From: Bacteroidaceae bacterium
Lineage (GTDB): Bacteria; Bacteroidota; Bacteroidia; Bacteroidales; Bacteroidaceae
Direction: 5' to 3'
Assembly (NCBI GenBank): GCA_017448965.1
Contig: JAFSKK010000050.1
Coordinates: 1-64,000 of the forward strand
Length of the DNA: 64,000 nucleotides
A program made the translations under genes and the position numbers. Positions 23,633-33,388 of this stretch are shown here, in pieces. Below the pieces are notes generated by a model. The model saw only the letters and a list, made by a program, of their open reading frames with translations, was not told the origin of the DNA and did not search any database. Position 1 is the first letter of the stretch. Every line of letters begins with the position of its first letter.

Positions 23633-23721
23633 TGCGTGGAAAAAATGTATTGAAAAATATCATTTAATGGAAGGATTTTCCAAATATAAAGTACTTTCTT
23701 GGTCATTTTTTTCATACCTCT

Positions 23722-23729
23722 TAACTTTG
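23722..23729 (+). promoter_or_regulatory. -7 box TAACTTTG for the LuxR-type regulator
   Basis: Consensus -7 box 22 bp before the ATG at 23751. No 7-2-7 operator lies upstream in this orientation at the usual spacing. Confidence 0.55.
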
Positions 23730-23750: not shown

Positions 23751-24410
23751 ATGGCAGAGACAAGACAAATCATATTGGCAGACAATCAGGACATCACACG
23801 GCTGGGACTGAGAAATCTCATCAGAGGAGCACTAGCCAACGTGGAGCATCTGGAAGTAAAAGAACTCAGCCGGCGCGCTGAACTCATTGCCGAACTGAAG
23901 GAGAACCCCTCATCGGTGGTGGTGATAGACTACACCCTCTTCGACCTCACCAGCAGCGACGAACTCCTCAACCTCTCCGAGCGGTTCCCCTTCGCCCTGT
24001 GGGTGCTCTTCTCCGACGAACTGACAGAGCAACTCATCCGCCGACTCAGCGTGGAGCAGCAGTTCAGCATGATACTGAAGGACGACTCGGCACAAGAAAT
24101 CATCACGGCACTGAAATGTGCGGTGACAGGCGTGCGGTTCCTCTGCCATCAGGTTACCAACCTGCTGCTCACTCCACAGACAGCCACCGAACAGGACGAC
24201 CCCCTCACCGCCACCGAACGTGAGGTGCTCCGTCTCATCGCTTTGGGCAAGTCGGTGAAGGAGGTGGCAGCAGAACGCAATTCGAGCATCCACACCATCA
24301 CGACCCACAAGAAAAACATCTTCCGAAAAATCAATGTGAACACTGTGTATGAGGCCACAAAATATGCCCTACGGGCTGGATTGGTGGAGATGGTGGAATA
24401 CTGTATATAA
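23751..24410 (+). CDS. LuxR/NarL-type response regulator-like transcription factor
   Basis: 219 residues. The start at 23751 (MAETRQIILADNQDITRLGL) follows a -7 box; the longer in-frame reading crosses operator D and is rejected. The N-terminal receiver-like domain (about 1-135) keeps Asp11/Asp14, phospho-acceptor-position Asp60 and Lys110. The C-terminal HTH (about 150-215: LTATEREVLRLIALGKSVKEVA ... IHTITTHKKNIFRKI) is of the NarL/FixJ class. No sensor kinase is nearby. It is transcribed away from susC and toward the MetY-like and cysteine operon genes. NarL-class proteins bind 7-2-7 inverted heptamers beginning TAC, the form of sites A-E, so it is the leading candidate regulator (inference). 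Confidence 0.85.
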   Translation: MAETRQIILADNQDITRLGLRNLIRGALANVEHLEVKELSRRAELIAELKENPSSVVVIDYTLFDLTSSDELLNLSERFPFALWVLFSDELTEQLIRRLSVEQQFSMILKDDSAQEIITALKCAVTGVRFLCHQVTNLLLTPQTATEQDDPLTATEREVLRLIALGKSVKEVAAERNSSIHTITTHKKNIFRKINVNTVYEATKYALRAGLVEMVEYCI

Positions 24411-24412
24411 AG

Positions 24413-24440
24413 TTGAGAGTTTAAAGTTTAAAGTTGAGAG
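24413..24440. repeat. Single period-7 repeat arm between the regulator and metY-like genes
   Basis: AAGTTGAGAGTTTAAAGTTT-type heptamers match the arms of the 6556-6664 element, without core or second arm. They end 2 bp before the next ATG. Confidence 0.6.
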
Positions 24441-24441
24441 A

Positions 24442-25623
24442 ATGAATAAGGCAACAATAGCAATTGACACGAAACTGCCGAGACAAGATGCTTATGGGGC
24501 GATTGCAATGCCAGTGTATCATACAGCGGCATACGAGTTTGAGACGGCAAAGGAGATGGCGAACGCCTTCTGTGGAAGAGTGCTGGCACCCGACTATTCG
24601 AGAGTGATGAACCCCACGGTGATGCATCTGGAGGACACGGTGAAGGCACTGACAGGAGCAGCGAACGTGTTTGCCTTCTGCTCGGGCATGGCGGCCATCA
24701 GCAATACGCTGCTGGCGGTGGTGGAACAGGGGAAGAATATCGTCACGTCCAACCATTTGTTTGGCAACACGGTGGCGCTGACGACGAAGACCTTGGCACG
24801 GCTCGGAGTGGAAACACGACAGATTGACCTGCTCGACCTTGATGCCGTGAGACGTGCCCTCGACGAGAACACGGCCTGCCTCTATCTGGAGATTGTCACC
24901 AACCCCCAGCTGGAGGTGGCCGACCTCTCGGCACTGGCAGGGATAGCTCACGAACGGAACATCCCCCTCATAGCCGATACGACGGCTATCCCCTTCACTC
25001 AGTTCAGTGCCAAAGCATTAGGTGTGGACATCGAAGTGGTGAGCAGCACCAAATACATCTCTGGGGGAGCCACTTCATTAGGTGGATTGGTCATCGACTA
25101 TGGCACCTTCCCTGTGGTGAACCAGCGCATCCGTTTCGAACTGCTCTTCAACGTGGGTAGTTATATGTCGCCTCATGCCGCCTATATGCAGTCGCTGGGC
25201 TTGGAAACGCTCGATGCCCGCTATCGGGTACAGTCGGCAAATGCATTGGCTCTAGCACGAAAACTGCAAGGTGTGCCCGAAATCAAACGGGTGAACTACA
25301 TAGGGTTGGAGGATAATCCCTTCTATGCTTTGGCACGGAAGCAATTTGGAGAGACCAGCGGTGCCATGCTCACCATCGACTTGATAGATAAACGGGCCTG
25401 TTTCCACTTCATCGACCACCTGCAACTCATCCGCAGGGCGACAAACCTCTTCGACAACAAGAGCCTCGCCATCCATCCTTACAGCACCATCTTCGGTCCT
25501 TTCAGTCGGAGCCAGAAGCAGGCAATGGACGTGTTTGACACCACCATCCGCCTCTCTGTCGGACTGGAAAATGTGGACGACATCTTTGCTGACATCGTGC
25601 AGGCAGTCGAGGGACTACCATAA
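24442..25623 (+). CDS. Cys/Met-metabolism PLP enzyme (MetY/MetZ-like sulfhydrylase or lyase)
   Basis: 393 residues. The start at 24442 follows the repeat arm; an in-frame longer reading only adds translated repeat sequence. Fold-type I trans-sulfuration family: PVYHTAAYEFETAKEM, DYSRVMNPTV, FCSGMAAISNTLL and the PLP lysine in SSTKYISGG (Lys204). Closest in style to O-acetylhomoserine sulfhydrylases and O-succinylhomoserine sulfhydrylases, which add sulfide or thiocarboxylate sulfur to an activated homoserine; a gamma-lyase cannot be excluded. It lies 31 bp after the regulator gene, and its last codons overlap operator E for the cysteine operon. Confidence 0.8.
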   Translation: MNKATIAIDTKLPRQDAYGAIAMPVYHTAAYEFETAKEMANAFCGRVLAPDYSRVMNPTVMHLEDTVKALTGAANVFAFCSGMAAISNTLLAVVEQGKNIVTSNHLFGNTVALTTKTLARLGVETRQIDLLDLDAVRRALDENTACLYLEIVTNPQLEVADLSALAGIAHERNIPLIADTTAIPFTQFSAKALGVDIEVVSSTKYISGGATSLGGLVIDYGTFPVVNQRIRFELLFNVGSYMSPHAAYMQSLGLETLDARYRVQSANALALARKLQGVPEIKRVNYIGLEDNPFYALARKQFGETSGAMLTIDLIDKRACFHFIDHLQLIRRATNLFDNKSLAIHPYSTIFGPFSRSQKQAMDVFDTTIRLSVGLENVDDIFADIVQAVEGLP

Positions 25624-25684
25624 ATGTGGTAGCAGAATACCATACGAGTGGGATTTCGTGAATGGCTGAAAACCACGAACTTTG
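25616..25684 (+). promoter_or_regulatory. Operator-promoter E (7-2-7 TACC/GGTA type) for the sulfur operon
   Basis: TACCATAAATGTGGTA at 25616-25631, GGGATTTCG at 25650-25658 and a -7 box GAACTTTG (25677-25684, first base off consensus). Operator edge to -7 first base is again 61 bp. The operator overlaps the stop of the metY-like gene. Confidence 0.75.
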
Positions 25685-25722
25685 TACCAGAATTTCATTG
25701 TGACAAAAAACTTTATACGACC

Positions 25723-26658
25723 ATGGCAAAAAGAATCGCAAACAGCTTGGTGGAACTGATTGGCAAGACTCCACTACTGGAACTTTCAAAGACAAAGAAA
25801 AAGCAGAAACTCCAAGCACGGGTGTTAGCAAAGCTGGAGTATCTGAACCCCGGCAGAAGCGTAAAGGATCGCGTGGGTTATGCGTTGATTGAGGAGGCAG
25901 AACGACAGGGTTTGCTCAATCGCAACACCGTCATCATCGAACCCACCAGCGGCAACACAGGCGTGGGATTGGCATTAGTGGCTGCTCAGCGTGGCTACAA
26001 ACTCATCCTGACGATGCCTGACAGCATGAGCATTGAGCGCAGAACTCTCCTTAGGAGTCTTGGCGCGAAGTTGGTGCTCACACCAGCTTACGAGGGAATG
26101 CCTGGAGCCATTCGCAAGGCTCAGGAACTGGCAGCTGAGACCAACGCTTTCATCCCTCAGCAGTTTGTCAATGAAGCAAATCCACAGATTCATCGCAAGA
26201 CAACGGCCAAGGAGATTTGGGAAGACACGGACGGTAAGGTCGATATTTTTGTATCTGGCGTAGGCACAGGCGGAACCATCACGGGTGTGGGCGAAGTATT
26301 GAAGAGCTTGAATCCTAAAGTAAAGGTGGTGGCTGTTGAACCTTACGACTCTCCAGTATTGTCGGGAGGCAAACCTGGACCTCACAAATTGCAGGGTATC
26401 GGAGCGGGCTTCACGCCACAAGTGCTGAACACGGAGGTCTATGACGAAATCTTCAAAGTGAAGAACGAGGACGCTTTTGCAGTAGCCCGACAGTTGGCAA
26501 AGACGGAAGGTGTGTTGGTGGGAATCTCCAGCGGTGCTGCCGCTCATGCTGCCATCGAAATTGCCAAACGACCTGAAAATGCTGGCAAGACCATTGTGGT
26601 GCTGTTGCCCGACACAGGAGAACGTTATCTCAGCACAGCACTTTTCTCAGAAGAATAA
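25723..26658 (+). CDS. Cysteine synthase (CysK/CysM family)
   Basis: 311 residues; the start at 25723 ([17 protein letters not shown]) is canonical and follows promoter E. Fold-type II PLP enzyme with NPGRSVKDR (PLP Lys48), [12 protein letters not shown] and [13 protein letters not shown]. It converts O-acetylserine plus a sulfur donor to cysteine. In thiocarboxylate systems a CysM-type homologue uses a sulfur-carrier protein instead of free sulfide; which one applies here cannot be read directly, but the next genes encode a carrier, its E1 and a JAMM protease. First gene of the operon; 29 bp to the carrier gene. Confidence 0.9.
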
Positions 26659-26687
26659 AATTATCACATACAAAAAACTTCATCATT

Positions 26688-26903
26688 ATGGCTAAATTAA
26701 TTGTAAACGGAGAAGACCAAGAGGTTCAGCTCCCTGCTACTGTAGCAGACTTAATCAAACAGAACAATGTGGCACAACCTGAAATGGTGAGTGTGCAGGT
26801 GAACGAGGAATTTGTGGACAGAGAGGAGTTCGCCACCCTTCAACTCAATGAAGGTGACGAAGTGGACTTCTTGTATTTCATGGGAGGTGGTGCGTATGTT
26901 TGA
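26688..26903 (+). CDS. ThiS/MoaD-like sulfur carrier protein with C-terminal tail
   Basis: 71-residue beta-grasp protein: KLIVNGEDQEVQLPATVADLIKQ, then VSVQVNEEFVDREEFATLQLNEGDEVDFLYFMGGGAYV. ThiS proteins end in Gly-Gly, which an E1 adenylates and sulfurates to a thiocarboxylate. Here three residues (AYV) follow GGG, so the carrier must be trimmed before activation, as in QbsE and Wolinella HcyS where a JAMM protease does it. A JAMM gene lies four genes downstream. The stop overlaps the E1 start by 8 bp. The 20 bp at its start match those at the LuxR gene start. Confidence 0.88.
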   Translation: MAKLIVNGEDQEVQLPATVADLIKQNNVAQPEMVSVQVNEEFVDREEFATLQLNEGDEVDFLYFMGGGAYV

Positions 26904-27705
26904 TTTCACAGAAGAAGAACTGAACCGATATTCGCGACATATTCTCTTACAGGATGTGGGCGTGGAAGGTCAGGAAAAGATACGCGAGGGCAAGGTGCTC
27001 GTGATTGGCGCTGGAGGCTTGGGTGCTCCAGTGGCAATGTATCTTGCAGCAGCAGGTGTGGGCACCATCGGCATCGTGGATGGTGATGTGGTTGATTTGA
27101 GTAACCTGCAACGTCAGATCATTCACACTACAGCTGATGTGGACAAGTGGAAGGTGGAGTCGGCAAAAGAAACCATCAACGCCATCAACCCCCACGTGAA
27201 GGTCAATACCTATCGTGAATTTTTGATGGCAGACAATGCGCTCGACCTCATCAAGGAGTACGACTTTGTGGTGGATGGCACGGACAATTTCCCAGTGAAG
27301 TTCCTCATCAACGATGCTTGTGTGATGGCAGGCAAACCTTTCAGTCATGGTGGCATCCTGAGATTTGAGGGACAGACGTTCACGCATCTTCCAGGTACAG
27401 CATGTTACCGCTGTATGTTCAAGACACCGCCACCAGCAGGAGCTGTACCAACGTGCAGTCAAGCAGGTGTGTTGGGAGCCATCGCTGGTATGCTCGGAAC
27501 CATTCAGGCAGCAGAGACATTGAAGTATCTGACAGGCGTGGGTGAACTGCTCACCAACAAGCTGCTCACATTCAACGCCAAGACGATGGATTTCCGCAAG
27601 ATTAATGTGAAGAAAACGGACAAGTGCCCTATCTGTGGCACGAACCCGACAGTAACAGAATTGATTGATTACGAACAGGCTGCTTGCGACCTCAAAAATC
27701 ATTGA
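26896..27705 (+). CDS. MoeB/ThiF-like E1 adenylyltransferase
   Basis: 269 residues from the ATG at 26896, which overlaps the carrier gene by 8 bp. MFDFTEEELNRYSRHILL is the typical start. ATP site VLVIGAGGLGAPVAMYLA (about 34-51), VDGDVVDLSNLQRQ, zinc-binding CYRC (170-173) and CPIC (244-247), and candidate catalytic Cys187 in VPTCSQAG. It should adenylate the C-terminal glycine of the carrier and accept sulfur to form a thiocarboxylate. No rhodanese domain is fused, unlike MoeZ, so sulfur must come from another protein, plausibly the TusA/DsrE-like proteins and the encapsulated desulfurase of this operon. Confidence 0.9.
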   Translation: MFDFTEEELNRYSRHILLQDVGVEGQEKIREGKVLVIGAGGLGAPVAMYLAAAGVGTIGIVDGDVVDLSNLQRQIIHTTADVDKWKVESAKETINAINPHVKVNTYREFLMADNALDLIKEYDFVVDGTDNFPVKFLINDACVMAGKPFSHGGILRFEGQTFTHLPGTACYRCMFKTPPPAGAVPTCSQAGVLGAIAGMLGTIQAAETLKYLTGVGELLTNKLLTFNAKTMDFRKINVKKTDKCPICGTNPTVTELIDYEQAACDLKNH

Positions 27706-27709
27706 TGAT

Positions 27710-28189
27710 ATGGCAGAACAGAAAAAACTTTCATTGATTGCCTTCTCTGGCGATTTCGACAAACTGACAGCAGTTTTCACGTTAGCGACAGGAGCAGCAG
27801 CCGTGGGCTACGAAGTCAACATCTTCTTCACCTTCTGGGGTTTGGACGCCATCAAACAGAAAAGAGGACGTTCTTTCATCGGTAGTAACTGGCTAACAAA
27901 AATCTTCGGCTTCATGATGGGTGGTCTCAGTGTTGCTCCCAACAGCCGTTTCAACTTCGGTGGCATCGGTCCACAGATTTTCCGTTCCCTGATGCGGAAA
28001 AAGAATGTGGCAACGCTGGAAGAACTCGTTGATGCTGCTAATGCATTGGGCGTAAACCTGTATGCCTGCGAGATGGCGATGCACGTGCTCGGACTGGAGA
28101 AAAAGGATTTTATCCAAGAAGTGAAGGACGTGCTGGGTGTGGCAACCTTCCTCAAAATCAGCGAAGGTGGACAAACATTATTTATATAA
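27710..28189 (+). CDS. DsrE/DsrF-like family protein
   Basis: 159 residues from the ATG at 27710, 4 bp after the E1 stop. SLIAFSGDFDKLTAVFTLATGAAAVGYEVNIFFTFWGL fits the DrsE_2 fold (large DsrE-like proteins). FGFMMGGLSVAP and GVNLYACEMAMHVLGL follow, the last holding the conserved Cys of the family. Relatives relay sulfane sulfur alongside TusA in sulfur oxidation or thiolation. A hydrophobic segment near 60-75 suggests membrane or protein docking. Probably exchanges sulfur with the TusA-like protein encoded next. Confidence 0.82.
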   Translation: MAEQKKLSLIAFSGDFDKLTAVFTLATGAAAVGYEVNIFFTFWGLDAIKQKRGRSFIGSNWLTKIFGFMMGGLSVAPNSRFNFGGIGPQIFRSLMRKKNVATLEELVDAANALGVNLYACEMAMHVLGLEKKDFIQEVKDVLGVATFLKISEGGQTLFI

Positions 28190-28220
28190 ATGGTAAATCT
28201 TCAAATTGTAAATTAAAATT

Positions 28221-28445
28221 ATGGCAACATATACATTAGATATCACCAAAGAGCATTGCCCGATGACCTTCGTGAAGACAAAGCTCAAACTGGCACAAAT
28301 CGCAGCTGGCGACACTTTGGAAGTCCTTCTCACAGAAGGCGAACCACTGGAGAATGTTCCTCGTTCTGCAAGGGAACAGGGTTATAACGTTCTCAGCGTG
28401 GAACACGTAGAAGGTAACGTACACAAGGTAACGATATTAAAGTAA
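28221..28445 (+). CDS. TusA-like sulfur transfer protein
   Basis: 74 residues: ATYTLDITKEHCPMTFVKTKLKLAQIAAGDTLEVLLTEG, then EPLENVPRSAREQGYNVLSVE. Cys13 starts the CPxP-type motif, here CPMT, so the second proline is replaced. TusA proteins take persulfide sulfur from a cysteine desulfurase and pass it to DsrE-like or other acceptors. It lies between the DsrE-like and JAMM genes, consistent with a relay inside the operon. Confidence 0.88.
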   Translation: MATYTLDITKEHCPMTFVKTKLKLAQIAAGDTLEVLLTEGEPLENVPRSAREQGYNVLSVEHVEGNVHKVTILK

Positions 28446-28457
28446 TTGATCATTCGT

Positions 28458-28856
28458 ATGAACGTGATTATCACAGAATCGACCTATCAGTCCATCTTGG
28501 CACAAGCACAAAAGGATGCACCCATGGAGTCATGCGGTTATCTGCTCGGTACGGACAAGGAGACGGCAACGGAGAACTATCCGATGACGAATGTTGACCA
28601 CTCCGAAGAGCATTTCAGCTTCGATCCCAAGGAGCAGTTTGCAGCCATCAAATATGCCCGCAAGAAGGGACTGACCATCGTGGGCAATTGGCATAGCCAT
28701 CCTGCCTCTCCTTCACGTCCATCTGAGGAAGACAAACGGTTGGCATACGACCCCAACATTCTCTATTTCATCCTCTCTTTGGCAGAGGAAAAACCTGTAT
28801 TAAACGCCTTTCGCATTGAGGATGGCGAAGTAAAAGAAAAGTATCCACTTAGATAA
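28458..28856 (+). CDS. JAMM/Mov34 metalloprotease (Mec/HcyD/QbsD-like)
   Basis: 132 residues from the ATG at 28458; a TTG four codons earlier is less likely. Complete JAMM zinc site: Glu24, then HSHP with His79 and His81, Ser89 and Asp92 (spacing H-S-H-x7-S-x2-D). Prokaryotic JAMM proteins beside ThiS-like carriers either trim the carrier tail to expose Gly-Gly (QbsD, HcyD) or release cysteine from a carrier adduct (Mec of mycobacteria). Here the carrier has a three-residue tail, so trimming is expected and release is possible as well. Confidence 0.9.
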   Translation: MNVIITESTYQSILAQAQKDAPMESCGYLLGTDKETATENYPMTNVDHSEEHFSFDPKEQFAAIKYARKKGLTIVGNWHSHPASPSRPSEEDKRLAYDPNILYFILSLAEEKPVLNAFRIEDGEVKEKYPLR

Positions 28857-28888
28857 ATTAATTATTCACATTTCATCATTAGTAGAAT

Positions 28889-30328
28889 ATGGCAGACAAC
28901 AACATTCAGCGCAGCATCACGACTGCAACGGCTCGCAAACTGGCGAACACCACCAAGACGCCCCCTCAAATGGGCAGTATTACACCGAGACTCCTCCTCA
29001 AGCTCCTTCCTTGGACCCAGGTGGAAAGTGGCACCTATCGTGTGAACCGCACGAAAGTGGAACTGAAAAAGGCTGAACGCATCGAGATTCAGTACTTCGA
29101 TGGCGTGCCAAGTTTCACGGCAAAGAATCTCCGTGCCATTCCACTTTTCCAGAACATCAAGCAGGAGATTGTGGCGCGCTTGGCTCGCAACTTCGTGCCT
29201 GTAGAAGTGGCTCGTGGCAAGAACCTTGTCACTCAGGGCAAGGACAAGCAGCGTTTCTTTATCGTGGCAAACGGTCAGGCTGAGGTGATCAGCACGGGTA
29301 CTCATGGAGAGGAACTCCGTATTGCTCTGTTGGGCAATGGTGAGTATTTCGGAGAGGCAGACTTGCTGAGTGCTGCAGATTCTACTGTCAGTGTCCGTTC
29401 TGTGACTGACTCCGTGTTCTTGGTACTCGACACACCCGTGTTGGAATCGCTCATCGAGGAAATTCCAGACTTCCGTGAGCAGTTCAACAATGCTGTGGAT
29501 AAGCAACTTCGTCTGAAGGCGACAGTGAATGAACATGGCGAGAAACACATCGACCTTGTGAGTGGTCATGAGGAGGACAACGTCATCCCAGAGACATACA
29601 TTGATTACGAAGAGAATCCTACGGAGTACTCACTCAACACTTTACAGACAGTGGTGCGCGTTCACACTCGTGTGAGCGACCTCTACAATGCGCCATACAA
29701 CCAATTGGAACAGCAACTGCGTCTCTCCATCGAGAGCATCAAGGAACGTCAGGAGTGGGAACTCATCAACAATAAGAAATTTGGTTTGTTGGCTCAGACA
29801 GCTCCTGGCTATAAGATTAGTGCTCGCTATGGTGCACCAACTCCAGATGATCTGGATGAACTGCTTTCACTCGTATGGAAGGAACCAGCATTCTTCATTG
29901 CCAATCCTCGTGCCATCGCAGCCTTCGAGCGTGAGTGCACATGGCGTGGTGTGCCTCCTGTGGCCATCGACCTCTTCGGCACGAAAGTCATCACTTGGCG
30001 TGGTGTGCCCATCATCCCATCTGACAAGGTGGAGGTGAAGGGACAGTACTTGACCAATCGTGGTGTAGGAACAACAGACATCATTCTCGTGCGTGTGGGT
30101 GAGAAAGAGCAGGGCGTGGTCGGTCTGCATCAGGCAGGCATCCCTGGCGAAATTGCTCCAAGTCTCTCAGCACGTCTGATGGGTCTCGACCAGTATGGTG
30201 TGGCAAGCTACTTGCTCACCAAGTACTTCAGCCTTGCTTCGCTCACTGACGATGCCATTGCCGTTCTGGAGAACGTGGAGGTAGGCTACTACCATGATTA
30301 TCAGCACAGAAACAAGATTGAGAAATGA
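28889..30328 (+). CDS. Family 2 encapsulin shell protein with inserted cNMP-binding-like domain
   Basis: 479 residues. The HK97-type shell sequence is in two parts, about 1-82 and 205-479 (ENPTEYSLNTLQTVVRVHTR, RQEWELINNKKFGLL, ISARYGAPTPDDLDELLSLVW, GTKVITWRGVPIIPSDKV). They flank a cyclic-nucleotide-binding-like domain at about 85-195 (IPLFQNIKQEIVARLARNF ... GEYFGEADLL). That insertion is the mark of group 2B encapsulins in the published family 2 classification as I recall it. The cNMP domain lacks the phosphate-binding Arg (SAADSTVSV follows FGEADLL), so nucleotide binding is doubtful. Shells assemble into icosahedral compartments. It is coupled by an ATGA overlap to a cysteine desulfurase with a cargo-type N-terminus. 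Confidence 0.9.
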   Translation: MADNNIQRSITTATARKLANTTKTPPQMGSITPRLLLKLLPWTQVESGTYRVNRTKVELKKAERIEIQYFDGVPSFTAKNLRAIPLFQNIKQEIVARLARNFVPVEVARGKNLVTQGKDKQRFFIVANGQAEVISTGTHGEELRIALLGNGEYFGEADLLSAADSTVSVRSVTDSVFLVLDTPVLESLIEEIPDFREQFNNAVDKQLRLKATVNEHGEKHIDLVSGHEEDNVIPETYIDYEENPTEYSLNTLQTVVRVHTRVSDLYNAPYNQLEQQLRLSIESIKERQEWELINNKKFGLLAQTAPGYKISARYGAPTPDDLDELLSLVWKEPAFFIANPRAIAAFERECTWRGVPPVAIDLFGTKVITWRGVPIIPSDKVEVKGQYLTNRGVGTTDIILVRVGEKEQGVVGLHQAGIPGEIAPSLSARLMGLDQYGVASYLLTKYFSLASLTDDAIAVLENVEVGYYHDYQHRNKIEK

Positions 30329-31974
30329 TTATGTATTTAAACGAGTTAGATAACTTTCACTTTGACTTGCCAGATTTGGGAACAGCACCACAGGTGGCAG
30401 TGCCGAATGCGGCACCTGACGAGTTGGACTTGTCTGCCCTGCCCATCCCAACTACGTCTTCCCCTGTGGGGACTGTGGATGCTCCTCAAATTGGAAGTCT
30501 GAGTGCCGCTGATGAGGAACTCTTCAGGGGAGTCATCGCCAAATACTTTTCAGATGAAAAAGCCCCCCAGCCCCCAAAGGGGGAGGGCTGTCGCGGTGTT
30601 TCTCTGCTGACGGAATTGACTTCTCGTGGCCAACAAGGCGGTAGCCCTCCCCCTTCGGGGGCTGGGGGGCTTGCCTTCTCTGATAACGGCTTCGGCATCG
30701 GGATACCCGAAACGGACATCGTGCGAAACCTCCACTACGACGAGGCAGACACGGTGAACACCGAAGAAATCCGCAAGCAGTTCCCTATCCTCCATCAGAA
30801 GGTGAACGGCCACGACCTCGTGTGGTTCGACAATGGTGCGACCACCCAGAAGCCACTGCGGGTTATCGACGGATTGAGCGAGTTCTACAAGACGGACTAC
30901 TCGAACATCCATCGTGGCGCACACACGCTGGCAGCACGAAGCACCGACCAGTATGAAGGTGCCCGTGAGAAAGTGGCTCGCTTCATCAATGCCCCTGCCA
31001 AGGAGAACATCCTCTTTGTGCGTGGCACGACGGAGGGCATCAATCTGGTGGCACAGACGTTCGGCAGGAAGTTCTTGGAGAAAGGTGACAACGTGATTGT
31101 CTCCACGCTTGACCACCACGCCAATATCGTGCCGTGGCAACAAGTCTGCAAACAGCAGAAAGCGGAACTCCGTGCCATCCCCATCGACAAGAATGGCGAC
31201 CTCATCCTCTCGGAATTGGAACAACTCATCACGCCCCACACCAAGTTCATTAGCGTGGGACATGTGAACAATACTTTCGGTACTATCAACGATGTGGAGA
31301 GCATCATCCGTACTGCTCATTCCCACAACATTCCTGTGCTCATCGACGGCGCACAATCCATCGCCCACACGAAGGTGGATGTGCAGCAACTCGACTGCGA
31401 CTTCTTCGTGTTCTCAGGTCATAAGATTTATGGACCTTCAGGCATCGGAGTGGTGTATGGCAAGAAGGAGTGGCTCGAACAGCTGCCACCATGGCAAGGC
31501 GGAGGCAACATGATCAAGGATGTGACTATCGAACACACCGAGTTCAATGCGCCACCAGCACGATTCGAAGCAGGTACACCCAATATTGCCGATGCCATCG
31601 GCTTGGGCTATGCACTTGACTTCGTGCAGAGTGTGGGCATCCACAATATCGAACGTCACGAACACGAACTCACAGAATATGCCCGTCAACAAATTAGTCG
31701 TATTCCGGGCATCACCATCATGGGCAACCCCAAGAAGCGTGTGAGTGTCATCTCTCTCGACATCCCTGGCATACCTGCTCCCCAAGTGGGGCAACTGCTT
31801 GACAAAGAAGGAATCGCTGTCCGTGCAGGTCATCACTGCGCACAACCAGCCTTACGGGCACTGGGTTACGAGATGTCAGTACGTCCCACGTTTGCTGTCT
31901 ATAATACAAAAGATGAGGTGGACCGCTTGGTCATCGCACTCCAGAAGATTGTGGCAGACGTGCAGAAACGATAA
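30325..31974 (+). CDS. Encapsulated cysteine desulfurase (SufS-like) with N-terminal cargo extension
   Basis: 549 residues, about 140 more than SufS. Residues 1-140 are low-complexity and Pro/Ala/Asp-rich with repeated short LP-type motifs (FDLPDLG, LDLSALPIP), the kind of disordered N-terminus that targets family 2 encapsulins. Residues 145-549 are a class II desulfurase: FDNGATTQKP, HANIVPW, PLP Lys367 in FSGHKIYGP and catalytic Cys505 in RAGHHCAQP. It releases sulfur from cysteine as persulfide and alanine. Residues about 79-116 are encoded by a palindromic GC-rich insert (30560-30672) inside the disordered part. Start ATG overlaps the shell stop (ATGA); end of the operon. Confidence 0.9.
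   Translation: MIMYLNELDNFHFDLPDLGTAPQVAVPNAAPDELDLSALPIPTTSSPVGTVDAPQIGSLSAADEELFRGVIAKYFSDEKAPQPPKGEGCRGVSLLTELTSRGQQGGSPPPSGAGGLAFSDNGFGIGIPETDIVRNLHYDEADTVNTEEIRKQFPILHQKVNGHDLVWFDNGATTQKPLRVIDGLSEFYKTDYSNIHRGAHTLAARSTDQYEGAREKVARFINAPAKENILFVRGTTEGINLVAQTFGRKFLEKGDNVIVSTLDHHANIVPWQQVCKQQKAELRAIPIDKNGDLILSELEQLITPHTKFISVGHVNNTFGTINDVESIIRTAHSHNIPVLIDGAQSIAHTKVDVQQLDCDFFVFSGHKIYGPSGIGVVYGKKEWLEQLPPWQGGGNMIKDVTIEHTEFNAPPARFEAGTPNIADAIGLGYALDFVQSVGIHNIERHEHELTEYARQQISRIPGITIMGNPKKRVSVISLDIPGIPAPQVGQLLDKEGIAVRAGHHCAQPALRALGYEMSVRPTFAVYNTKDEVDRLVIALQKIVADVQKR
30560..30672. repeat. Palindromic element inserted in frame in the desulfurase gene
   Basis: Left arm 30560-30589 (AAGCCCCCCAGCCCCC...) pairs with right arm 30643-30672 (...GGGGGCTGGGGGGCTT). 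Each arm also folds on itself (CCCCCAAAGGGGG; CCCCCTTCGGGGG). It is translated as about 38 residues without a stop, in the disordered cargo extension. Confidence 0.85.
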
Positions 31975-32097: not shown

Positions 32098-32140
32098 GTC
32101 AGCCCCGTGCAATCTGTGAAGATGGCATGGGGCTTTTTTC
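32098..32140 (+). terminator. Possible terminator after the sulfur operon
   Basis: GCCCC at about 32103 pairs with GGGGC at about 32130, followed by a T run (TTTTTTC). The loop is long (about 22 nt), so the call is tentative. Confidence 0.35.
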
Positions 32141-32152
32141 TTTAGGATTGTG

Positions 32153-32160
32153 TAACTTTG
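32153..32160 (+). promoter_or_regulatory. -7 box TAACTTTG for the C-S lyase gene
   Basis: Consensus -7 box 20 bp before the ATG at 32180; no TACC/GGTA operator at the expected spacing. Confidence 0.55.
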
Positions 32161-32179: not shown

Positions 32180-33388
32180 ATGAGATATGATTTTGACAAG
32201 CCCGTTGATCGCAGAGGGTCGGGCGATTTGAAGCATGAGGTGCTTCAGGAACGATATGGACGGAGTGATTTGCTGCCTTTGTGGGTGGCAGATATGGATT
32301 GGGAAACCCCTTCCTTCATCACGGATGCCCTGAAACAACGGCTCAACCACTCGCTGTTCGGCTATACGGTCGAACCCAAGGACTATTGGCCAACGGTGCA
32401 GCAATGGATAGAGGCGCACCACCAATGGAAGGTGGAACGTGAATGGTTGACCTACATCCCTGGCATTGTGAAGGGCATCGGCATGGTCATCAACTTCTTC
32501 CTGAAGGAGGACGAGAAGGTGATTGTGCAACCACCTATCTACCATCCGTTCTACCTGACCCCAAAGGGAAACAAACGGGAGGTGGTGTGGAATCCGCTGA
32601 AGGAGACCCTCTCCCCAGCCCTCCCCCATAATGGGGAGGGAGTCTTTTATGAGATGGACTTCGAGAATCTCGAACAGGTGTGTGATGACAAGTGTCGTCT
32701 GCTCATCTTGGCAAATCCCCACAACCCTGCTGGCCTCGTGTGGGACAGGGAGACGTTGCAGCGATTGGCTCACTTTGCGAAGGAGCACCATCTCATCGTC
32801 ATCAGCGACGAGATTCACTGCGACATGGCGCTATGGGACAACAAGCACATCCCCTTTGCGTCGGTGAGCGCCGAGGCAGCGGAGGTGAGCATCACGTTTG
32901 GGGCTCCGACGAAGACGTTCAATATGGCGGGCATCGTGAGTTCGTGGTGCATCATCCCGAACGAGGAACTGCGCAAACCGTTCTACCAGTGGCTGGCTGC
33001 CAACGAACTGAACGACCCCAATATGTTTGCACCCATCGCCACCATAGCCGCCCTGAAGCATGGGGAAGAGTGGCGGCAGCAGATGCTGCGCTATATGGAG
33101 GGAAATATTGACTTCCTCATCGACTACTGCCAGAAGTATATCCCGAAAATAAAGCCTGTGCGTCCACAGGCCTCCTATCTGGTGTGGCTCGACTGCCGCG
33201 ACTTGGGCTTGAACCACAGGGAACTCATCGACTTATTCGTCAACAAGGCGCACCTCGCTCTCAACGACGGCGAGATGTTCGGCCCTGGCGGTGAGGGTTT
33301 CATGCGCCTAAATGTGGGTACCCAGCGAAGTGTGCTGGAGCAGGCGCTTAAGCAGTTGAGTGGGAGAATTGAAGAGTTGAAAAATTGA
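32180..33388 (+). CDS. MalY/PatB-type C-S beta-lyase (aminotransferase fold)
   Basis: 402 residues: YDFDKPVDRRGSGDLKHE ... LPLWVADMDW is the diagnostic MalY/PatB start, then LILANPHNPAGLVW, ISDEIHCDMAL and PLP Lys245 in GAPTKTFNMAG. Such enzymes split cystathionine or other cysteine S-conjugates to homocysteine or thiols, pyruvate and ammonia. It is downstream of the sulfur operon but has its own -7 box. Residues about 143-153 (TLSPALPHNGE) are encoded by a GC-rich hairpin (32610-32642) in a loop before the PLP domain. The last residues (RIEELKN) and the stop come from a repeat arm (33366-33462). Confidence 0.88.
   Translation: MRYDFDKPVDRRGSGDLKHEVLQERYGRSDLLPLWVADMDWETPSFITDALKQRLNHSLFGYTVEPKDYWPTVQQWIEAHHQWKVEREWLTYIPGIVKGIGMVINFFLKEDEKVIVQPPIYHPFYLTPKGNKREVVWNPLKETLSPALPHNGEGVFYEMDFENLEQVCDDKCRLLILANPHNPAGLVWDRETLQRLAHFAKEHHLIVISDEIHCDMALWDNKHIPFASVSAEAAEVSITFGAPTKTFNMAGIVSSWCIIPNEELRKPFYQWLAANELNDPNMFAPIATIAALKHGEEWRQQMLRYMEGNIDFLIDYCQKYIPKIKPVRPQASYLVWLDCRDLGLNHRELIDLFVNKAHLALNDGEMFGPGGEGFMRLNVGTQRSVLEQALKQLSGRIEELKN
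32610..32642. repeat. GC-rich hairpin inside the C-S lyase gene
   Basis: CCCTCCCC pairs with GGGGAGGG around ATAAT, embedded in frame. Its arms resemble those of the element at 30560-30672. Confidence 0.6.

Follow-up and report, generated by a model that had tools for sequence, protein, structure and literature searches.

A family 2B encapsulin beside a protein-thiocarboxylate relay in Bacteroidales: a possible compartment-fed route towards homocysteine

Wolinella succinogenes makes homocysteine through the thiocarboxylate pathway of HcyS, HcyF, HcyD and MetY. Operons that join a sulfur carrier, an E1 enzyme and a JAB protease to a cysteine synthase or an O-acetylhomoserine sulfhydrylase are known (PMC1779556); rows 4c and 4d of that work show operons of the CysO/CysM/Mec/MoeZ type, and row 4e, which lists Wolinella, shows a gene set like the relay described here. 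Cysteine desulfurases are also found in operons with family 2B encapsulin shells, of which a survey counted 199 in nine phyla, with serine acetyltransferase and rhodanese as their most enriched partners (PMC8346489). The main text of that survey mentions neither TusA nor ubiquitin. Where the sulfur from encapsulated desulfurases goes is left open in the passages of PMC8049743 covered here. Here we describe an operon in a stretch of 64,000 nucleotides (the window) from a gut-type member of the Bacteroidales, a Bacteroidaceae bacterium (GenBank assembly GCA_017448965.1, contig JAFSKK010000050.1, positions 1 to 64,000 of the forward strand). Genes for a family 2B shell and a cysteine desulfurase lie there in one cluster with genes for CysK, a ThiS-like carrier, a ThiF-type E1, a DsrE2-like protein, a TusA-like sulfurtransferase and a JAMM metalloprotease.

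We favour reading this locus as a compartment-fed protein-thiocarboxylate pathway, in which a desulfurase held in the shell would feed the carrier relay towards homocysteine, and we give this reading a probability of roughly 0.55. Gene content, catalytic motifs, the tail of the carrier, gene linkage and the lack of a sulfite reductase beside the shell are its starting points, and all can be read directly from the DNA. The eight genes from CysK to the desulfurase (25723-31974) all lie on the plus strand, with successive gaps of 29, -8, 4, 31, 12, 32 and -4 bp. The ThiS and ThiF genes overlap by 8 bp (26896-26903), and the shell and desulfurase genes by the sequence ATGA (30325-30328).

Searched for in bacterial genomes, the shell protein had 437 relatives, the best 80 of which supplied the loci analysed. 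All eight genes are present in the fetched DNA of 60 of the 80 loci, and in 15 of the remaining 20 the flank of the shell gene is shorter than 8 kb on one or both sides. Among the 38 well-flanked loci, which have 8 kb or more both before and after that gene, 33 hold the full set; four of the exceptions lack CysK and one (L078) lacks ThiS, ThiF and JAMM, while DsrE2 and TusA are found in 38/38. At least five gene orders occur (in 35, 16, 6, 1 and 1 loci, with L057 in addition, whose cluster is divided between contig ends), so the genes have stayed linked through rearrangement. Further evidence comes from 393 genomes of the order, in which the shell was called over its cut-off and JAMM at E 1e-10. 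The shell was detected in 10 genomes, JAMM in 16 and both in nine, which places JAMM in 9/10 shell genomes versus 7/383 others (Fisher p = 2e-13, or 4e-12 without the window's genome, in a test that treats genomes as independent, which is not fully true). The sole shell genome without JAMM (G239) is 65% complete. A preliminary description of this DNA had listed eight tightly spaced genes of common direction with the two overlaps, encoding a family 2 encapsulin, a cysteine desulfurase and a full carrier relay. Pfam and NCBIfam agree on these families, with the single refinement that the shell is of family 2B; the desulfurase is a SufS-type candidate cargo with a variable N-terminus. The genes do keep together in relatives, so the refuting outcome that the description had named, a lack of such conservation, did not occur. 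The description set the upstream limit of the operon too late, omitting the regulator and MetY genes of the probable transcription unit.

Shell-free forms of the relay differ on the side of the sulfur donor. Seven genomes of the order carry the JAMM relay without a shell, and in five of them ThiF and JAMM adjoin a protein with sulfite reductase domains; in most cases ThiS and DsrE2 are there too. Four of these proteins (L181, L185, L186 and L188) are full-length, at 782-833 residues, and end in a TusA domain; in the fifth case (G123) the relay genes with the sulfite reductase are cut by contig ends. A sulfite reductase with a C-terminal TusA domain also lies beside the relay in L189 and, by similarity only, in L196. 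This fusion protein was found in 0/110 shell-associated loci (the window, L032-L120 and L141-L160; 104 loci without six duplicate contigs). No sulfite reductase match was obtained in the window's own genome, which is 85.6% complete, or in 16 of 20 shell genomes (14/17 of one set and 2/3 of another). Judged by gene company, the shell and desulfurase appear to occupy the donor position of the relay, replacing the sulfite reductase. We propose, more tentatively, that where gut Bacteroidota lack sulfite reductase, a desulfurase-bearing encapsulin took over from sulfite reduction as the sulfur source of the pathway, with cysteine sulfur passing by way of the shell and a ubiquitin-like carrier to homocysteine. 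In one genome, G064, a single contig carries both kinds of cluster, with the shell in L112 and the sulfite reductase relay in L189. Genes adjoining that shell cluster (L112:1273-6754) resemble by eye what we take to be nitrogenase-type nifE/N, nifB and nifH.

The catalytic motifs of the relay proteins are almost fully conserved. Across the shell loci, the JAMM motif HxHx7Sx2D is kept in 68/69 proteins, the TusA CP motif in 79/79, the DsrE2 cysteine in 79/80 and the cysteine pairs of ThiF in 70/72. PF00899 was the only domain called in the window's ThiF, with no rhodanese domain called, and the DsrE2-like protein reaches 73.5 bits against NF047629, under its cut-off of 210. A C-terminal tail is a feature of carriers processed by a JAMM protease. 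Here, 1-40 residues follow FMGGG in 73/73 carriers of distinct shell-bearing loci (78/78 including five duplicate contigs); the tails are not conserved in sequence and are never absent from this set. A shell, a desulfurase and a CysK are also found in a distant lineage, f136 (loci L141-L154 and L158-L160). Its carriers end exactly at GGG in 13/13 cases, and no JAMM match was found in the fetched f136 loci. This rule fits a protease that would need to expose the glycine end of the carrier.

At the receiving end, the pyridoxal phosphate (PLP) enzyme encoded just upstream of CysK has its best solved match by far in PDB entry 3ri6, an O-acetylhomoserine sulfhydrylase, which scores 124 bits above the next chain, a methionine gamma-lyase. 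We take 3ri6 to be the Wolinella enzyme. The title of a structural paper on the Wolinella O-acetylhomoserine sulfhydrylase stands in the reference list of PMC10416483. A MetY of the 3ri6 type lies in the fetched DNA of 32/38 well-flanked loci; the 80 loci hold 61 copies, 52 on the strand of the shell gene and nine opposite. Direct comparison identified this type in 14 of 17 shell genomes, with G791 a probable fifteenth by Pfam score alone, and 15/17 genomes have a homoserine acyltransferase match.

By score and by its solved relatives, the cysteine synthase of the operon is an ordinary CysK, with 462.6 bits against TIGR01139 (cut-off 350.95) and 274 bits against the cysM model, under the cut-off of 394. 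An analogy with CysM and CysO was considered for this protein and dropped, as family scores and PDB matches fit CysK. In a tree of 103 CysK rows, the 73 from the operon cluster on one branch that is not fully supported (96/75). Together with 14 shell-linked f136 rows and one further copy from G064, they stand apart from the other 14 extra-operon copies (98/98), which suggests a shell-linked lineage of CysK. Row L157, which belongs to the class-level family f124 and not to f136, falls outside the shell-linked group.

Family scores place the shell protein in encapsulin family 2B, with the inserted domain (PF00027) at residues 105-190. Its best PDB sequence match is 9bje (375 bits), which we take to be a 2B shell, judging from its length and the full-length match. 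The Arg that usually precedes the S/T of the cyclic-nucleotide phosphate cassette was not seen by eye in the shell rows inspected. Inserted domains of this type are described as binding no cyclic nucleotide (PMC12407261). The desulfurase has a SufS-type catalytic domain, in which the active-Cys motif is kept in 79/80 and the PLP Lys motif in 80/80 shell loci. Its N-terminus is variable, with one LARLANEFFS-like stretch recognised by eye, and the pattern GFG[IVL]xIPE precedes the catalytic domain in 72/80. We regard the enzyme as a probable cargo of the shell. Its variable linker contains an inverted repeat with 41-nt arms (88% complementary) at 30560-30672, in frame and translated, which is absent from the close relative L032 and has a similar stretch in L034. 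The core of the arm has 17 matches with at most two mismatches in its own genome, two of them this copy, and the reversed control has none. By eye, the linker of the L042 desulfurase holds a different repeat-like stretch. The linker may serve as a landing site for repeat elements.

From the gene families present, we can outline how such a pathway might run; cargo loading, storage, each transfer of sulfur and the end product are all predicted. The desulfurase, loaded in the 2B shell, would take sulfane sulfur from cysteine. A small persulfide or polysulfide would probably carry the sulfur out of the shell, to be picked up by DsrE2 and TusA. JAMM would first trim the short tail of the ThiS-like carrier; ThiF would then adenylate the exposed glycine end, and the sulfur borne by TusA would convert it to a thiocarboxylate. 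MetY would join the carrier's sulfur to activated homoserine, after which JAMM would free homocysteine. The CysK of the operon could run a parallel synthesis of cysteine, or refill the cysteine pool that feeds the desulfurase.

Several observations weigh against this favoured pathway. Its weakest step is the receipt of sulfur by TusA from an enclosed desulfurase. For one family 2B shell, the reported two-fold pore is 14 x 60 A and partly covered, and the other pores are 6 and 3 A wide (PMC12407261); because such pores would make TusA entry difficult, a direct transfer between the desulfurase and TusA is doubtful, and the sulfur may have to exit as a small molecule. The desulfurase scores under the cut-off of the NCBIfam cargo model NF041166 (686 of 800 bits), with a match confined to the catalytic part and a short stretch ahead of it. 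No relay lies near the shell in L078, and in KHT7 (L108) the genes ThiS-ThiF-JAMM are on another contig, which also carries a sulfite reductase-like gene. Two genomes, G144 and G243 (91 and 87% complete), hold the relay and gave neither a shell nor a sulfite reductase match. A sulfite reductase occurs somewhere in four of the 20 shell genomes, and the contrast of 4/20 with 5/7 reaches only p = 0.02, with relatedness ignored. Neither end enzyme is universal: G387 and G055 (99 and 98% complete) showed no MetY of the 3ri6 type, judging by Pfam score bands and, for one G387 copy, by direct comparison, and 4/38 well-flanked loci (L069, L071, L092 and L111) lack CysK. Nor would the operon be the sole route, since a CysK-MetY pair outside it was confirmed in 12/17 genomes; in most sampled genomes, the operon would add a second, dedicated set. 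The tail is not strictly required with JAMM either, since in the shell-free relay of L185 JAMM is present and the carrier ends at GGG.

Other explanations of the locus have to be set beside this pathway. The preliminary description saw a loop of storage and recall, in which the compartment draws sulfur from cysteine and the relay gives it back to cysteine. Spelled out, the shell would keep sulfur taken from excess cysteine, and CysK would catalyse the return. That encapsulins loaded with a desulfurase store sulfur is proposed in PMC8049743 and also mentioned in PMC12407261, and CysK is present in 34/38 well-flanked loci, its lineage being tied to the shell in two distant groups; the f136 locus L160 even has a serine acetyltransferase gene between CysK and the shell. 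However, CysK scores as an ordinary CysK, and the enzyme that resembles the carrier-dependent type is the neighbouring MetY, which that description had left out; the carrier is tailed, and four well-flanked loci keep the relay and shell without CysK nearby. We therefore consider a closed cysteine-to-cysteine loop unlikely, and of the earlier interpretation retain the shell, the candidate cargo, the relay and their co-occurrence. The cluster could instead hold two independent modules under one regulator, sharing conditions and not atoms: the shell and desulfurase would handle excess cysteine or store sulfur, and the relay would use sulfide or persulfide from elsewhere. ThiS-ThiF-JAMM does move as a unit relative to the genes for CysK, DsrE2, TusA, shell and desulfurase, and in KHT7 it is detached from them. 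Each part also occurs alone (the relay without a shell in the seven genomes above, the f136 shell and CysK without a JAMM match), and the pores reported for a 2B shell hinder protein hand-over (PMC12407261). Yet DsrE2 and TusA accompany the shell in every well-flanked locus and remain near it even where ThiS-ThiF-JAMM has moved off, suggesting a connection through sulfur at the shell, and we judge full independence of the two modules improbable.

Two further alternatives concern the relay proteins themselves. The ThiS/ThiF pair might be thought to serve thiazole synthesis for thiamine, as the carrier scores above the ThiS cut-off and the f136 shell cluster in L160 adjoins ThiS-ThiG-ThiH-ThiF. 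But in 17/17 shell genomes, several of them incomplete, the ThiS count equals the ThiG count plus one; 12 of them have no ThiG match and yet keep the carrier, and the other five have a second ThiS on the ThiG contig. Since ThiS exceeds ThiG by one throughout, and with a tail and a JAMM partner on the carrier, thiamine synthesis has next to no chance of explaining the pair, and on these counts we exclude it as the purpose of the operon carrier. The ubiquitin-like carrier, E1 and JAMM might instead modify the shell or its cargo. Bacterial modification systems of this composition have been proposed (PMC1779556), and JAMM weakly matches the desampylase model (79 bits, cut-off 130). The steady company of TusA, DsrE2, CysK and MetY, and of sulfite reductase in the shell-free forms, points to sulfur chemistry instead and makes protein modification very unlikely.

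The coordinates of the cluster and its surroundings are given in Table 1. Ten genes (23751-31974), starting at the regulator, probably form one transcription unit, because a promoter match precedes the regulator gene and a strong hairpin with a U-rich run follows the desulfurase gene. The regulator and MetY genes are 31 bp apart in the same direction, and the MetY gene ends 99 bp 5' of CysK (its first Met is at 24442; query sequences for MetY started at 24436). The promoter pattern, which we take to be Bacteroidetes-like, has six matches in the window versus 2.25 in shuffles and is hence weak. A sigma-70 promoter scan of the window (8 matches, shuffle mean 6.8) and a simple terminator scan (5 matches versus 8.0 in shuffles) showed no excess.

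Table 1. Features of the encapsulin and carrier-relay locus in the window
Feature	Position	Strand	Basis or remark
Bacteroidetes-like promoter match TTG-N20-TAACTTTG	23699..23729	+	5' of regulator gene; weak, consensus presumed
NarL/LuxR-type response regulator	23751..24410	+	PF00196 55 bits; probable first gene of unit
MetY-like PLP enzyme, 3ri6 type	24442..25623	+	Best PDB match 3ri6 350 bits, next 226
CysK cysteine synthase, shell-linked lineage	25723..26658	+	Family scores, PDB matches, tree
ThiS-like sulfur carrier, end FMGGG-AYV	26688..26903	+	TIGR01683 65.5 bits, cut-off 37.45
ThiF/MoeB-type E1 without rhodanese domain	26896..27705	+	PF00899 283 bits
DsrE2-like protein, conserved Cys in YACEMA	27710..28189	+	PF13686 136 bits
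TusA-like sulfurtransferase with CPMTF	28221..28445	+	PF01206 76 bits
JAMM metalloprotease with HSHPASPSRPSEED	28458..28856	+	PF14464 92 bits
Family 2B encapsulin shell protein, inserted cyclic-nucleotide-type domain	28889..30328	+	NF041163 557 bits, cut-off 400
SufS-type cysteine desulfurase (CyD), variable N-terminus of ~140 residues, probable cargo	30325..31974	+	TIGR01979 557 bits, cut-off 475
Intrinsic-terminator-like hairpin and U-rich run, 3' of desulfurase gene	32101..32143	+	-24.1 kcal/mol, z -5.06

A relative of the regulator occurs in the fetched DNA of 21/38 well-flanked Bacteroidales loci (>100 bits) and of 14/17 f136 loci (>80 bits); the receiver domain of the window's regulator was not called by Pfam at E 0.001. 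By eye, the regulators near the shell clusters of both lineages (window 23751-24410; L160:6125-6796) share DYTLFD. The PatB-type C-S lyase gene downstream (32180-33388) was considered as a core part of the operon and rejected, as it is present in only 7/38 well-flanked loci and the terminator-like hairpin precedes it. A TAACTTTG box, presumably a promoter element, lies before its start at 32153-32160, and the fuller promoter pattern has no match there.

A shell that feeds homocysteine synthesis would provide transsulfuration that bypasses cystathionine and would link protein nanocompartments with the supply of amino acids in bacteria of the gut and rumen. Under the more tentative proposal of a replaced sulfite reduction, the route would also be buffered by a nanocompartment that holds sulfur. 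The operon supplies candidate acceptors (DsrE2, TusA and the carrier) and end enzymes (MetY and CysK) for a 2B shell, and makes the fate of the sulfur testable with a small set of proteins.

Set against known systems, the relay appears closer to the Wolinella homocysteine route than to CysO/CysM, because the upstream PLP enzyme is a MetY of the 3ri6 type. With the Wolinella pathway it shares a tailed ThiS-like carrier, a rhodanese-free E1, a JAMM protease, a TusA/SirA-type protein and this MetY; unlike that pathway, it has a desulfurase and shell as donor-side neighbours in place of a sulfite reductase, and adds CysK and DsrE2. The shell-free sulfite reductase relays resemble row 4e of PMC1779556. 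Operons of the CysO/CysM/Mec/MoeZ type likewise unite a carrier, an E1, a JAMM protease and a cysteine synthase; the present one differs in a synthase that is not of the CysM type, an E1 without rhodanese, a tailed carrier and the presence of MetY. Of the two analogies first drawn for the relay, the one with HcyS/HcyF/HcyD/MetY thus holds better, given the MetY type and the tail, and the one with CysO/CysM fails on the CysK scores and the missing rhodanese domain.

On the side of the compartment, the nearest described system is the family 2A SrpI/CyD pair of Synechococcus elongatus, in which a family 2 shell adjoins a SufS-type desulfurase with a long variable N-terminus and a LARLANEFFS-like stretch, as it does here (PMC8049743). 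The present shell is of family 2B instead, the second motif AASPYYFLDG was not seen in its desulfurase, and GFG[IVL]xIPE marks most of the desulfurases of this group. The f136 shell cluster, from the same phylum and possibly from Chlorobiaceae (a guess from gene content and a Chlorobium remark in PMC1779556), shares the regulator, the 2B shell, CyD and a CysK of the same lineage. Its locus L160 differs in having serine acetyltransferase and ThiS-ThiG-ThiH-ThiF, and not DsrE2, TusA and JAMM, and may represent another way of linking a carrier to a desulfurase that is probably encapsulated. Within the literature searched, which left survey supplements and most subscription journals outside, no paper joined an encapsulin to TusA or a 'sulfur carrier', in keeping with the initial impression that the full combination is undescribed. 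The present system is probably among the family 2B desulfurase operons already counted (PMC8346489). It is best seen as a union of two known kinds, the family 2B desulfurase shell and the carrier-E1-JAMM relay, with a probable swap of the sulfur donor.

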